This document shows positions 17,667-28,763 of a stretch of 35,611 nt of DNA, in pieces (the first letter of the stretch is position 1; each line of letters begins with the position of its first letter). Origin of the DNA: Burkholderiaceae bacterium. Lineage in GTDB: Bacteria; Pseudomonadota; Gammaproteobacteria; Burkholderiales; Burkholderiaceae_C. The stretch covers positions 1 to 35,611 of the forward strand of contig JAJVIL010000094.1 in NCBI GenBank assembly GCA_022072045.1, written 5' to 3'. The notes below the pieces were generated by a model. The model was given only the letters and a program-made list of their open reading frames with translations, did no database searches and was not told the DNA's origin. A program made the position numbers and the translations under genes.

Positions 17667-19822
17667 ATCAACAGCGGGAGAACCTCAACATGTTGAAGTG
17701 GCGCCTGAGGGCGGCTGCGTTCTTGCTGGGCTTGGCTGCGCCGCTGATGGGATGGGCCCAGAACACGATCCAGGCCATCACCAGCAGCCAGCAGGCAGGC
17801 AGCGAAGTCGTTCGCATCGAGCTGTCGGAGCCGTTGGCCGCAGCGCCCACCGGCTTCGCGGTGCAAGCGCCGCCCCGGGTCGCGCTCGACCTTCCAGGGA
17901 TCGGCAACGGGCTGGGTCGTTCCACCGTCGATATCAATCAAGGCAACCTGCGCTCGGTCAGCGTCGCGCAGGCCGGTGACCGCACCCGGCTGGTTTTCAA
18001 CCTGAAGCAAGCGGCCAACTACCGGACGGAACTGCAAGGCAAAGTGTTGGTCGTCGTGCTCGAAGGCAGTGGCGCATCCGCAAGCGCGGCCACACCCAGC
18101 CCCACCGGCGAACCCGTTCATTTCGCGGCCAGCCAGAACCGCGAGCAACTGCCGATCAAGGACATCGATTTCCGCCGCGGCCCCGACGGGGCGGGCCGCG
18201 TGGTGGTCGGATTGTCGAGCACGCAGGTAGGTGTCGACATCCGCCAGCAGGGGCAGAACCTGGTGGTCGACTTCCTGCGCTCGACGTTGCCTGACGCACT
18301 GAGGCGCCGGCTCGACGTGACCGACTTCGGCACGCCGGTGCAGACCGTGTCTGCGACGCAGAACGGCGACCGCGTGCACCTCGTCGTCACCCCGCGCGGC
18401 TCGTGGGAGCACAGTGCCTACCAGACCGACAACCAGTTCGTGCTCGAAGTGCGGCCGATGAAGGTCGACCCGAACAAGCTCACGCAGGGTCCGGGGTATT
18501 CGGGCGAGAAGCTGTCGCTGAACTTCCAGAACATCGAAGTTCGCGCGTTGCTGCAGGTGATCGCCGACTTCACCAACTTCAACGTCGTGACCAGCGACAC
18601 GGTTACGGGCAGCGTCACGCTGCGGCTGAAGGACGTGCCCTGGGATCAGGCGCTCGACATCATCCTGCAGAGCAAGGGCCTGGGCGTGCGCAAGTCGGGC
18701 AACGTACTGTGGATCGCGCCGAAGGACGAGATCGCGGCCAAGGAGAAGCTCGAACTCGAGTCGCGCAAGCAGATCGCCGACCTCGAGCCGGTCCGTATGC
18801 AGGCGTTCCAGTTGAACTACACGAAGGCCGATGAAGTGGCCAAGGGTCTGACCGGGTCCGGCCAGCAGTCGGGCGGCACCGCCACGCGCATCCTGAGCCC
18901 GCGCGGCAGCGTGATCTCCGAATCGCGGACGAACCAGCTCTTCGTCACCGACATCCCGTCCAAACTCGAAGAGATCCAGTCGTTGATCTCCAAGATCGAC
19001 GTGCCCGTGCGGCAAGTGATGATCGAGGCGCGCATTGTCGAGGCCGACGACAAATTCGGACGCGCGTTGGGTGTCAAGCTCGGTGCACTCGATCTGAACG
19101 CCAACCCCGGCTACGACATCGGTCGCGGCCGGATGTCGCTGCCCACCGGCAACTACCTGGGCGTCGGTGAGCAGACAGGCCAGGCCGCGGTCACCGGGGG
19201 CAGCTACATCCCGAACACGCAGTTCATCAACCTGCCTGCCAACACGGGCACGCTCGGCGGTGCGACCGCGGCGTCGTTTGCGCTCTCGTTGTTCAGCGCA
19301 TCGGCGCAACGGTTCCTGAACCTGGAGTTGTCGGCGCTCGAGGCCGACGGCAAGGGCAAGGTCATCTCCAGCCCGCGCGTGATCACCGCCGACCAGATCA
19401 AGGCGCTGATCGAGCAGGGGACCGAGTTGCCTTACCAGGTGGCCACCTCGAGCGGAGCGACGTCGATCCAGTTTCGCAAGGCCAATCTGAAGCTCGAGGT
19501 CACGCCGCAGATCACGCCCGAGGGCAACGTGATCCTCGATGTCGACGTCAACAAAGACAGCGTCGGCCAGAACACCGCAGCCGGCTTTGCGATCGACACC
19601 AAGCACGTGAAGACGCAGGTCTTGGTCGAGAACGGCGGCACGGTGGTGATCGGCGGCATCTTCAGCCAGACCGAGCGCGACGACGTCAACAAGGTGCCGC
19701 TGCTGGGCGATATTCCTGTGATCGGCTACCTGTTCAAGAACTCCACCCGTACCTCGGCCAAGACCGAGCTGCTGATATTCCTGACGCCGAAGATCGTCAC
19801 CGATCGCACGGCTGCACGCTGA
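17663..19822 (+). CDS. pilQ: Type IV pilus secretin PilQ
   Basis: AMIN-like N-terminus, ISLNFQNIEVRALLQVIADFTNFNVV-like NolW/STN region, secretin domain VISSPRVITADQIKALIEQGTELPYQ, VNKVPLLGDIPVIGYLFKN. Start at ATG 17663, not the longer ORF at 17051. Confidence 0.96.
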   Translation: MNQQRENLNMLKWRLRAAAFLLGLAAPLMGWAQNTIQAITSSQQAGSEVVRIELSEPLAAAPTGFAVQAPPRVALDLPGIGNGLGRSTVDINQGNLRSVSVAQAGDRTRLVFNLKQAANYRTELQGKVLVVVLEGSGASASAATPSPTGEPVHFAASQNREQLPIKDIDFRRGPDGAGRVVVGLSSTQVGVDIRQQGQNLVVDFLRSTLPDALRRRLDVTDFGTPVQTVSATQNGDRVHLVVTPRGSWEHSAYQTDNQFVLEVRPMKVDPNKLTQGPGYSGEKLSLNFQNIEVRALLQVIADFTNFNVVTSDTVTGSVTLRLKDVPWDQALDIILQSKGLGVRKSGNVLWIAPKDEIAAKEKLELESRKQIADLEPVRMQAFQLNYTKADEVAKGLTGSGQQSGGTATRILSPRGSVISESRTNQLFVTDIPSKLEEIQSLISKIDVPVRQVMIEARIVEADDKFGRALGVKLGALDLNANPGYDIGRGRMSLPTGNYLGVGEQTGQAAVTGGSYIPNTQFINLPANTGTLGGATAASFALSLFSASAQRFLNLELSALEADGKGKVISSPRVITADQIKALIEQGTELPYQVATSSGATSIQFRKANLKLEVTPQITPEGNVILDVDVNKDSVGQNTAAGFAIDTKHVKTQVLVENGGTVVIGGIFSQTERDDVNKVPLLGDIPVIGYLFKNSTRTSAKTELLIFLTPKIVTDRTAAR

Positions 19823-19844
19823 CGCCGCCTCTCGACGGGTGAGC

Positions 19845-19868
19845 AACCGCCGGCCCGGGCCGGCGGTT
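19845..19868. terminator. Candidate terminator: 24-nt perfect palindrome between pilQ and aroK
   Basis: AACCGCCGGCCCGGGCCGGCGGTT followed by TGCATTTAT; weak T-tract. Confidence 0.5.
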
Positions 19869-19892
19869 TGCATTTATGCTGCGGCCCAGACG

Positions 19893-20459
19893 ATGACGGT
19901 CATCGCGTTGGTCGGAATGCCGGGCAGCGGCAAATCGAGTGTCGGGCGCCAGCTCGCCCGTCGCCTGGGCTGGGCGTTCGCCGACGCCGACTCGGAGGTC
20001 GAGCGTCAAATCGGCGGCGCGATTCGTGCTTACTTCGAGCAGCATGGCGAGGCGGCTTTCCGAGACATCGAGCAGACCGTTCTGGCTCGACTGCTCGAGC
20101 GCGACCGCTTGATCCTCGCGACGGGCGGTGGAGCTGTCCTTCGCGAGGCGAATCGACGCTTGCTGGCCTCGCGCGCCGAAGTCGTCTATCTGCGATCGAC
20201 TCCGGAAGAGCTGATGCGCAGGCTGCGGCACGACACGCACCGGCCACTGCTGCAGGTGGGCGATCCGATGCGCAAGCTGCGCGAGTTGTACGAACAGCGA
20301 GACCGCCTCTATCGCGAGTGCGCACGCTTCGTGATCGAAACGGGCAGGCCGTCGGTAAAGCTGCTGTGCGGCATGATCCTGATGCAGCTCGAACTGGCCG
20401 GCTTGGTCGACCCCGCCGAGGCGCCGTCGCCGCTGACGCCCGGTCGTGCTGGCGACTGA
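19893..20459 (+). CDS. aroK: Shikimate kinase
   Basis: [49 protein letters not shown]. Confidence 0.95.
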
Positions 20460-20488
20460 TCGGGCCGTGCCGCCCCTACACTAAGCTC

Positions 20489-21613
20489 ATGTCTGCAGTC
20501 TCTGCCCACGCGGCTGCCGCGCCCGTCCGCAGGGTCGCGGTGGATCTCGGCGAGCGCAGCTATGACGTCGTCATCGGCTGCGGTCTGCTCGACGAGCCTT
20601 CGGCGTGGCGGTCGCCAGCGTCTGACGCCAGTGCAATGATCGTCAGCAATTCGACGGTCGCTCCGCTGTATCTCGAACGGCTGGCGCGATCGCTGCAGGG
20701 CCGGCACTACCGCGTGCACAGTGTCGAACTGCCCGATGGCGAGCAACACAAGGACTGGTCGACGCTCAACAAGGTGTTCGATGCCCTGCTGGACGCGCGC
20801 TGCGAACGCGCGACCACGTTGTATGCGCTGGGGGGCGGCGTCGTCGGCGACGTCGCGGGCTTCGCGGCCGCCTGCTTCATGCGCGGCGTGCCGTATATCC
20901 AGTTGCCGACGACCCTGCTGGCGCAGGTCGACTCGTCGGTCGGCGGCAAGACCGCCATCAATCATGCGCTGGGCAAGAACATGATCGGTGCCTTCCACCA
21001 GCCGCGGGTGGTGGTGTGCGACCTCGATACCTTGAGCACGCTGCCCGATCGCGAGTTGCGCGCCGGGCTGGCGGAGGTCATCAAGTACGGGCCGATCGCC
21101 GATTGGGCCTTCTTCGAGTGGACCGAACGCCACCTCGACGACCTGCTGGCGCGCGAGCGCCCGGCGTTGTTGCATGCTGTGGGTCGTTCATGCGAGATCA
21201 AGGCCGATATCGTCGCGCGCGACGAGCGCGAGGGCGGCCTGCGCGCGGTGCTGAATTTCGGTCATACGTTCGGCCACGCGATCGAAGCCGGGCTCGGATT
21301 TGGCACCTGGTTGCACGGTGAAGCCGTGGCCGCCGGGATGGTCATGGCGGCGGCGCTGTCTGTCCGGCTGGGCATGCTCGACAGCGAGGCGGCCGCGCGG
21401 CTGACGTCGCTGCTGGCCCGCTGCGGGTTGCCCGTACAGGCTCCGGCCTTGGCGATCGAGCGCTACATCGAGCTGATGCGGCTCGACAAGAAACGGCGCG
21501 ACGGAGAGACCCGCTTCACGTTGCTCGAAGGCCGCGGCCGGGCGGTGATTCACCCTGCCGACGATGCGCTGGTGCGCGAAGTCGTCGCGCAGACGATTCG
21601 ACGCTCGACCTGA
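20489..21613 (+). CDS. aroB: 3-dehydroquinate synthase
   Basis: [70 protein letters not shown]. Confidence 0.97.
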
Positions 21614-21626
21614 TTGCGGTCTCGCC

Positions 21627-22331
21627 GTGGCGCGGCTGACTCGTCTGGCCGTGGCCGGCCACGCGCACTTGGTGCTGCTGCGCGGGCACGGCGCTCAGCC
21701 CGTCTTCCGCGATGATGCCGATCGAGCGGCGTTCCTGGCGGCGTTGCGGACCGCCTGTGTCGTCGAGCGGGTTGCGTTGCATGGCTACGCGCTGTTGCCG
21801 GATCGGGTTTGGTTGCTGGCGACCCCTGGCAACGACGATGCGCTCGGCCGCTGCATGCAGGCACTCGGGCGTCATTTCTCCGTCGCCTTCAATCGTCGAC
21901 ATGGGCGTCGAGGCAGCCTGTGGGACGGACGGTACCGCAGCGCGCTGGTAGAGGCGGGTCCGAGCCTGCTGGAGGCAATGCTGTTCGTCGACCTGGCGCC
22001 GGTGCGCGCAGGGCTCTCGATCGACCCGCCGACCAGCCCCTGGTCGAGCGCCCGCCAGCACGCGGACCAGCACTCAGAGTTTCCGCTCACTGACGCGGCA
22101 GCCTATTGGGCGCTTGGCAATACGCCGTTCGACCGCTGCACCAGCTATCGATCGATGCTCGCCGAGTCGCTGAGTTTGACCTCCATCGAGCGCATCGAAC
22201 GCGCTGTCCTGCGGGGCTGGGCGCTTGGCTCGACGGCCTTCCAGGAGCGAATGGCCAAACAAGTGGCTCGGCCGCTTTCGCCAAGGCCGCGTGGTCGGCC
22301 GCGCAGGGGACCACCGTCGCGAGAGCATTGA
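21627..22331 (+). CDS. REP-associated tyrosine transposase (RAYT, Y1_Tnp family)-like protein with apparently degenerate catalytic motifs
   Basis: VARLTRLAVAGHAHLVLLRGHGAQPVF..., FNRRHGRRGSLWDGRYRSALVE, DLAPVRAGL...SPWSSARQH, YWALGNTPFDRCTSYRSML, GWALGSTAFQERM...RPRGRPRR; family motifs retained but LPDRVWLL and MLFVDLAPVRAGL lack the expected HxH and Tyr. GTG start assumed. Confidence 0.8.
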   Translation: MARLTRLAVAGHAHLVLLRGHGAQPVFRDDADRAAFLAALRTACVVERVALHGYALLPDRVWLLATPGNDDALGRCMQALGRHFSVAFNRRHGRRGSLWDGRYRSALVEAGPSLLEAMLFVDLAPVRAGLSIDPPTSPWSSARQHADQHSEFPLTDAAAYWALGNTPFDRCTSYRSMLAESLSLTSIERIERAVLRGWALGSTAFQERMAKQVARPLSPRPRGRPRRGPPSREH

Positions 22332-22411
22332 TTGCTCGCGTCGCGCGCGGATGGCGAGGGTGCGATTGATATGCCCCCAATTCTCGGAATGCCTAACTGA
22401 TTTCTAACTTT

Positions 22412-22431
22412 AATAGGTGTCTGACCCTATT
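22412..22431. repeat. REP-like imperfect palindrome AATAGGTGTCTGACCCTATT downstream of the RAYT-like ORF
   Basis: AATAGG/CCTATT arms around GTC/GAC; located in an A+T-richer intergenic stretch before gltB. Confidence 0.45.
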
Positions 22432-22493
22432 TGTTTTGATTGTGTGTCTTGTTGCGGTGCAGTAGATTTCCGCGACCGCGATCGGAAGCCCTG

Positions 22494-27233
<4,740 letters not shown>

Positions 27234-27256
27234 CACCAGCCATCCACACGCCTCAG

Positions 27257-27278
27257 GCGGCGCGCTCGGGCGCGCCGC
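27257..27278. other. Intercistronic hairpin between gltB and gltD
   Basis: GCGGCGCGC-TCGG-GCGCGCCGC perfect 9-bp all-GC stem; no T-run follows. Confidence 0.6.
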
Positions 27279-27290
27279 GTTCGTCACATC

Positions 27291-28763
27291 ATGGGCAAGA
27301 TCACCGGGTTCCTCGAATACAAGCGCATCGAAGAGAGTCGCGAGCCCGTGGCGCAGCGGCTCCGGACGTGGCAGGAGTTCGTCGTCGCGCTGACGGCCGA
27401 CCAGGCCGCGGTGCAGGGCGCGCGCTGTATGGACTGCGGCACGCCGTTCTGCAACAGCGGCTGCCCGGTCAACAACATCATTCCGGACTTCAACGACCTC
27501 GTGTACCGCAACGACTGGCGGCGGGCTGCCGAGGTGCTGCACTCGACCAACAACTTCCCGGAGTTCACCGGCCGCGTCTGCCCGGCGCCGTGCGAGGCTG
27601 CCTGCACCCTGAACATCAACGACGACCCGGTGGGAATCAAGTCGATCGAGCATGCGATCGCCGATCGCGCATGGGCCGAGGGCTGGGTCGTGCCGCAGCC
27701 GCCGGCCGTCAAGACCGGCAAGAAGGTGGCCGTCGTCGGCTCCGGCCCGGCCGGACTCGCGGCCGCGCAGCAGCTCGCTCGCGCCGGCCACGACGTCACC
27801 GTGTTCGAGAAGAACAGTTGCATCGGCGGCCTGCTGCGCTACGGCATTCCCGACTTCAAGCTGGAGAAGACGCACATCGACCGGCGCGTCGAGCAGATGC
27901 GCGCCGAAGGGGTGACGTTCCGCACGGGCGTGCTGGTCGGCGCGTGGCCCGAAGGCAGCGCGGTGGCCAACGATGCGACCGAGACGATTGCCGCCGACCG
28001 ACTGACGGCGCAGTTCGACGCCGTGCTGCTCGCCGGCGGCGCCGAGGCGAGCCGCGATCTGCCGGTGCCGGGCCGCGATCTCGAAGGCGTGCACTTCGCG
28101 ATGGAGTTCCTGCCGCAGCAGAACAAGGTGAACGCCGGCGACCGGGTGCGGGGCCAGATCACCGCGCGCGGCAAGCACGTGATCGTCATCGGCGGCGGCG
28201 ACACCGGCAGCGACTGCGTGGGCACGAGCAACCGCCAGGGTGCGGCCAGCGTCACGCAGTTCGAGCTGATGCCGATGCCGCCGGAGCACGAGAACAAGCC
28301 GCTGACGTGGCCTTACTGGCCGATCAAGCTGCGCACCAGTTCGAGCCACGAAGAGGGTTGCCAGCGCGAGTTCGCGATCGCGACCAAGCAATTCGTCGGC
28401 GAGCGCAAGGGCGGGCAGCTCAAGGCACTGAAGACGGTGCAGGTGCAATGGCGCGACGGCAAGATGACCGAGATTCCCGGCACCGAGAAGGACCACCCGG
28501 CCGACCTCGTGCTGCTGGCGATGGGTTTCGTCTCGCCGGTGGCTGCGGTGCTCGAAGCGTTCGAGGTCGATGTCGACGTGCGCGGCAACGCGCGCGCCGG
28601 CACCGACGACGCCACCGGCTACCGCACCAACGTCGACAAGGTGTTCGCCGCCGGCGACATGCGACGCGGCCAGTCGCTGATCGTGTGGGCGATCCGCGAG
28701 GGCCGACAGGCGGCGCGCGCGATCGACGTCTACCTGATGGGTGCGTCTTCGCTGCCGCGCTGA
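27291..28763 (+). CDS. gltD: Glutamate synthase small subunit
   Basis: [70 protein letters not shown]. Confidence 0.97.

Follow-up and report, generated by a model that had tools for sequence, protein, structure and literature searches.

The closest described relatives of the gene analysed here are the RAYT group 1 proteins (Bertels 2017), 291 of whose 292 sequences have been assigned to subclass 2.1 of the TnpA-Y1 transposases (PMC6006769). This subclass has been described as lacking REPs and probably corresponds to the TIRYTs (PMC6006769), whose ends carry the motif GGGGWSAS, for which TIR dimers have been mentioned and in which HUH and Tyr are conserved in every member listed (Di Nocera 2013, PMC3733652). 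Proteins without the HUH and Tyr motifs have so far been set aside, having been removed as probably non-functional (Quentin 2018, PMC6006769), and gltB does not appear in the main text of that study.

Domesticated RAYTs and TIRYTs are known as a kind; new at the locus described here are the lack of catalysis and the tie to one promoter. In the open-access literature searched, we found no earlier description of a RAYT or TIRYT with these two properties, and nothing relevant that joins RAYTs or transposases with gltB or glutamate synthase.

The gene upstream of gltB and its relatives

The window, a stretch of 35,611 nucleotides from a Burkholderiaceae bacterium (assembly GCA_022072045.1, contig JAJVIL010000094.1, positions 1 to 35,611), carries between aroB and gltB an open reading frame (Table 1) that the original prediction described as a full-length RAYT-like protein with both catalytic motifs apparently lost. 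The open frame and the alignments agree with this description. The frame begins 14 bp after the aroB stop with a GTG matching the family start MARLPRL in the alignment, remains open up to the stop ending at 22331, and is followed after about 160 bp by the gltB ATG at 22494. An Rfam scan of positions 19000–28000 gave no match. In relatives, an extra gene of about 1.2 kb is common between aroB and the RAYT-like gene; it is missing in the window (21613–21627) and also in L005, L045, L046, L108 and a few other loci. The extra gene of L031 (3775–4953) is a dGTPase-like ORF, named by eye from its sequence.

Table 1. Features of the aroB–gltB region, in window coordinates
Feature	Position	Strand	Remarks	Basis
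aroB (3-dehydroquinate synthase), upstream neighbour	20498..21613	+	start approximate	ORF and tblastn against syntenic loci
gltB-linked RAYT/TIRYT-like gene	21627..22331	+	234 aa, GTG start, catalytically degenerate	ORF, NF047646, fold match to 4ER8
R60-V61-W62 replacing the HUH motif	21804..21812	+		alignments
F120 replacing the nucleophilic Tyr (Y115 of TnpA-REP)	21984..21986	+		profile alignment to 4ER8
A124 replacing Asn119 of TnpA-REP, the third metal ligand	21996..21998	+		profile alignment to 4ER8
WALGNTPF signature of the gltB-linked clade	22107..22130	+	near-invariant in dead and intact members	
C-terminal tail RPRGRPRR, GRP core at residues 223–225	22284..22307	+	GRP at least 97% conserved in dead members	
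Site A, TATGCCCCCAATT, degenerate TIR copy	22370..22382	+	50 bp upstream of site B	
Site B, TIR-type near-palindrome, core TCTGACCC at 22420–22427	22412..22434	+		
Putative gltB -35, TTGTGT	22440..22445	+	20 bp downstream of the site B core start	comparative spacing
Putative gltB -10, TAGATT	22463..22468	+	17-bp spacer	comparative spacing
gltB (glutamate synthase large subunit), linked downstream gene	22494..27233	+		ORF and tblastn against syntenic loci

A tblastn search of relatives found a RAYT-like gene directly upstream of gltB and on the same strand in 141 of the first 156 loci, typically with 70–250 bp between the gene and the gltB start, and this synteny spans Burkholderiales. Within the window's family, matches were detected in 238 of 251 genomes (218 of the 224 good ones), mostly as a single copy, which is also the case in the window's own genome. 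W.LGNTPF and a GRP tail are common to the gltB-linked proteins, which make up a single clade against 11 unlinked RAYT-like proteins, with support of 97 and 100 (the latter SH-aLRT) in two quick LG+G4 trees in which the catalytic columns were left out and many inner branches are weak. The window protein groups with intact gltB-linked members in these trees of gltB-linked and unlinked RAYT-like proteins. The RAYT-like gene has been retained at one locus; it is no recently broken copy, nor a chance insertion.

By its sequence, the window gene appears to belong to the TIR-flanked TIRYT branch (RAYT group 1, subclass 2.1). Intact members show NHxHLL and Y[IV][ED]LNPVRAG, which is the layout of subclass 2.1 (NHVH ... 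W[EQ] ... YIELNP in intact relatives), and a length of about 238 aa, prevalence in beta-proteobacteria and the lack of GTAG-type REPs are likewise shared with RAYT group 1. As in the TIRYTs (TIRtrons), a RAYT-like protein is encoded near an end motif of the GGGGWSAS type, and inverted TIR dimers occur, here in genomes with an intact copy. In contrast to the TIRYTs of Di Nocera 2013, which keep HUH and Tyr, the window protein has lost them, and no left end was found in the window; against RAYT group 1, both His, the Tyr and the Asn are missing. Two further differences from the TIRYTs are that the right end seems to lie within a host promoter region at fixed spacing and that the gene has stayed at a single locus throughout the family.

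Fold and catalytic positions

A phmmer search with the single window protein found no relative in the PDB, and a HMMER profile of 13 family sequences finds E. coli TnpA-REP (4ER8; E 9e-4). Against NCBIfam NF047646 (REP_Tyr_transpos) the protein scores 46.3 bits (E 3.9e-12), under the curated cutoff of 80, and against Pfam PF01797 (Y1_Tnp) 12.6 bits, under the cutoff of 23, as expected for a divergent family member. In the profile alignment to 4ER8, R60 and W62 take the places of the HUH histidines and F120 that of the Tyr, exactly at the positions that had been predicted, and A124 falls on Asn119, a replacement that the original prediction had not named (H60R, H62W, Y120F, N124A). The MAFFT alignment with relatives agrees on the catalytic positions. 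Asn119 is the third metal ligand of TnpA-REP (PMC6006769); it corresponds to the Asn found four residues after the Tyr in the Y---NP signature of RAYT class 2, which is absent here. With R60, W62 and F120 in these places, both the HUH pair and the nucleophilic Tyr of Y1/HUH transposases are missing, and neither an intact HUH nor an intact Tyr has moved to another part of the protein; the HAH at residues 12–14 lies in strand 1, and only its H14 is a family residue, H12 not being conserved.

The predicted AlphaFold model of the protein (pLDDT 89.7, pTM 0.86) has the Y1 transposase core fold, with 4ER8 as its best match in the PDB (Foldseek E 2.2e-8), followed by the ISDra2 and IS608 transposases. 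The profile alignment and these model matches thus show a retained fold from which all four catalytic residues have disappeared. The E. coli enzyme (TnpA-REP/YafM) shares the fold and the alignment of the catalytic core but is active on REPs, shorter (165 aa) and a member of subclass 2.2. The Y1 transposases of the IS200/IS605 type (2XM3, 2A6M) share the core fold and are mobile and active, whereas the window gene has one copy in its genome and encodes a catalytically degenerate protein. The GRP core of its C-terminal tail is, we presume, AT-hook-like.

Among 239 gltB-type proteins, 124 are intact, keeping HUH and Tyr, 36 are partial, and the other 79 are dead, with both lost; all four catalytic residues are kept in 116 of the 239 and all are lost in 64. 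The replacements are R, Q, E, S, A or G at the first His, W, Q, R, L or Y at the second, and F, L, W, C or H at the Tyr. On the tree, 20–21 changes of catalytic state are counted, at least 11 of them forced by supported branches, with the direction not given by these counts. HUH and Tyr are lost in each of the six genomes of the window's genus, where the first His is replaced by R or Q, the second by W and the Tyr by F. Since the loss is common to all six, at 48–73% protein identity to the window, it is old, and the recent inactivation that had been offered as one explanation is not supported.

Transposon-end motifs in the gltB leader

The palindrome that the original prediction had noticed downstream of the gene does exist, as site B, but it is imperfect and corresponds to a TIR transposon-end motif rather than to a REP. 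Binding of REPs, which had been suggested for the protein, is not supported: the protein would belong to the TIRYT branch, and the DNA associated with it carries, in the promoter region of gltB, an end motif of the GGGG[AT][CG]A[CG] type. No GTAG-type REP was found in the inverted-repeat scan or in the leader sequence, both showing the TIR-type motif at most, and an association of the window copy with REPs or REPINs was rejected. Scanning the leader for inverted repeats and DNA folds brought up nothing of note, and the end motif was seen only by comparison; a strict sigma-70 promoter scan did not call the gltB promoter, which was found via comparative spacing. The sequence AGGTGTCTGACCCT at 22415–22428 is the only exact copy in the window's genome (incomplete, 68%), and in the window's genus the end-motif site is essentially confined to the gltB locus.

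The exact core is present between the gene and gltB in 113 of 121 intact, 28 of 34 partial and 57 of 75 dead loci (0.8 expected from shuffles in the dead set, about 1% in shuffles overall); 18 of the 75 dead loci have no recognisable exact core site. Where both an exact core and TTGNNN-N16-18-TANNNT were found, the core starts 20 or 21 bp upstream of the promoter TTG in all 36 dead and all 79 intact leaders. When up to two substitutions are allowed, a site with this spacing is found in 56 of 75 dead leaders, as opposed to 2.2 in shuffled ones. A second copy of the motif, T[AC]TGNCCCCNWTT, lies 48–50 bp upstream of the first in 48 of 50 dead, 29 of 29 partial and 99 of 107 intact leaders (two of the last at 47 bp), and a control with 60 other distances gave one match in all and none in dead leaders. 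Between site A and the gene's end, the distance differs by some 60 bp across loci, and the spacing of sites A and B is thus a property of the promoter side, not of the gene. In 75 of the 251 genomes the strict two-site pattern is present, nearly always once each and mostly at the gltB locus; its reversed control gave a single match. These data suggest that the right transposon end is part of the gltB promoter region, and they show a two-site promoter architecture that has been conserved alongside the gene.

Taken together, the loss of cutting, the retention of the fold and of other residues, and the end motif in a fixed register suggest that a transposase turned into a DNA-binding regulator of gltB, a central gene of nitrogen assimilation. 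That the window gene encodes a domesticated TIRYT-branch transposase, now a cleavage-dead DNA-binding regulator of gltB, is in our judgement probable; that its lineage has repeatedly (at least about 11 state changes) turned into a cleavage-dead gltB transcription factor with its own end as a two-site operator is an even call. A TIRYT-branch transposase would have settled upstream of gltB early in the evolution of Burkholderiales, and the gene would then have been inherited there mainly vertically. Its right end would have become part of the gltB promoter region, with two direct copies of the motif 48–50 bp apart and the nearer one 20–21 bp upstream of the -35. Metal-binding and cleavage residues have been lost in the window's genus and repeatedly elsewhere, with the remaining fold being kept. 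We infer from the comparison that the dead protein would bind sites A and B without cutting and would modulate gltB transcription, by activation or repression, possibly in response to some signal; the recognition sites fixed in the gltB promoter beside a dead transposase suggest that it became a gene regulator. For one large clade, the locus would offer a concrete, testable answer to the question of which host role domesticated RAYTs have, with a target promoter and two mapped candidate sites, as well as a natural series of intact, partly dead and fully dead orthologues at one place. If true, this would be a bacterial case of the transposase-to-regulator route that is better known from eukaryotes.

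The main rival is exaptation in cis only, with the end being kept as a promoter or UP element of gltB and the protein having an unrelated function; we regard this as unlikely. It would explain site B, which abuts the -35, the AT-rich ATTTAAT then following, and it agrees with the frameshifted copy L258 (genome G187), where both leader sites are still present as judged by eye and the frameshift may be recent. It does not explain site A, which is equally fixed and seems too distant for an UP element, nor the constraint on the protein, whose conserved residues include the non-catalytic core. In addition, the gltB leaders of gene-less genomes mostly lack the motif: the core is missing in 20 of about 22 inspected leaders from genomes without a RAYT-like gene, the exceptions being L262, which is cut by a contig end, and L282, from a distant genome, and it is absent in the only four gene-less family members with a full gltB leader, two of which belong to one genus.

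Less likely again is a domesticated housekeeping protein that binds single-stranded or structured DNA in replication, repair or genome architecture and does not act via gltB, its linkage being historical. Host functions of unknown kind have been proposed for RAYTs (PMC8049555), hairpins are bound by the Y1 fold of TnpA-REP, and the gene is near-universal in the family, all of which would suit such a role. However, it leaves unexplained both the fixed spacing of two sites in the gltB promoter region and the near-confinement of the site to the gltB locus in the window's genus. A regulator of gltB remains the preferred reading.

Selection and mobility

Purifying selection on the dead proteins bears on a third possibility, a dying transposase in plain decay. 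Close pairs of dead proteins have dN/dS values of 0.125–0.28, and intact pairs of like closeness 0.05–0.28 (NG86); for the window and its nearest relative, L045, dN/dS is 0.25 at a dS of 0.91. Positions that are conserved in intact proteins and lost in dead ones (consensus letters, window numbering) are N22, R23, Q24, V55, N59, H60, H62, T97, E100, C117, Y120, L123, N124, R127 and H157, that is, the catalytic residues, their sequence neighbours and a few others. In the dead set R3, R6, Q78, R82, W99, R102, W161, GNTPF, R170 and GRP are conserved at 94% or more, GNTPF and GRP being near-invariant among 78 dead proteins. The dead proteins remain under purifying selection. Decay would fit the loss of catalytic residues in many lineages and the three copies with stops or frameshifts, L258 (G187), L256 (G304) and L116 (G328), but such broken copies are rare, the frame being open in nearly all matched genomes, and the low dN/dS, the near-invariant motifs and a loss common to a genus as diverged as that of the window make it very improbable. 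The selection for a non-transposase role that had been put forward is supported by a syntenic, near-universal gene, low dN/dS in dead lineages and many near-invariant non-catalytic residues.

In the lineage of L017 and L022, an N-terminal insertion accompanies the loss of HUH and Tyr. The gaps between the RAYT-like gene and gltB are 508 and 371 bp there, without an exact 8-bp core site, and this lineage may represent a different end state.

Inverted doublets of the form GGGGWCAGA-N20-50-TCTGWCCCC were detected in 37 of 115 genomes with an intact protein (75 doublets), and the 93 genomes with degraded proteins had none (Fisher 1.6e-11 on raw counts). A left end was found in 69 of 121 intact, 12 of 34 partial and 3 of 75 dead loci, with about 1.6 expected by chance for the dead set; in the window, right-side copies are present at 22370–22382 and 22412–22434 and no left copy was found. 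Small elements that are active in intact lineages and immobile in dead ones would account for this contrast. Neither for left ends nor for doublets, however, is it significant when phylogenetically independent pairs are compared, and it is therefore a pattern only, not proof of a difference in mobility, and may be a clade effect.

A still-active nuclease with substituted or relocated residues, for which the HAH pair at residues 12–14 and the tolerance of some HUH enzymes to variation might be cited, is nonetheless the least probable reading of all, given that four catalytic positions were lost together with diverse replacements at each site, that H14 is shared with the intact proteins and H12 shows no conservation, and that dispersed inverted doublets are lacking in all 93 genomes with degraded proteins.

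REPIN-like doublets are dispersed in G168, G296, G375, G372, G287, G356 and other genomes of the family with an intact protein, and the inner bases of the doublets match the end sequence of the respective genus, for example AATTGACTCTGACCCC in g106. In genome G292, which has no protein match, one inverted end-motif doublet remains at C2:53197-53244, possibly a relic of a lost copy.
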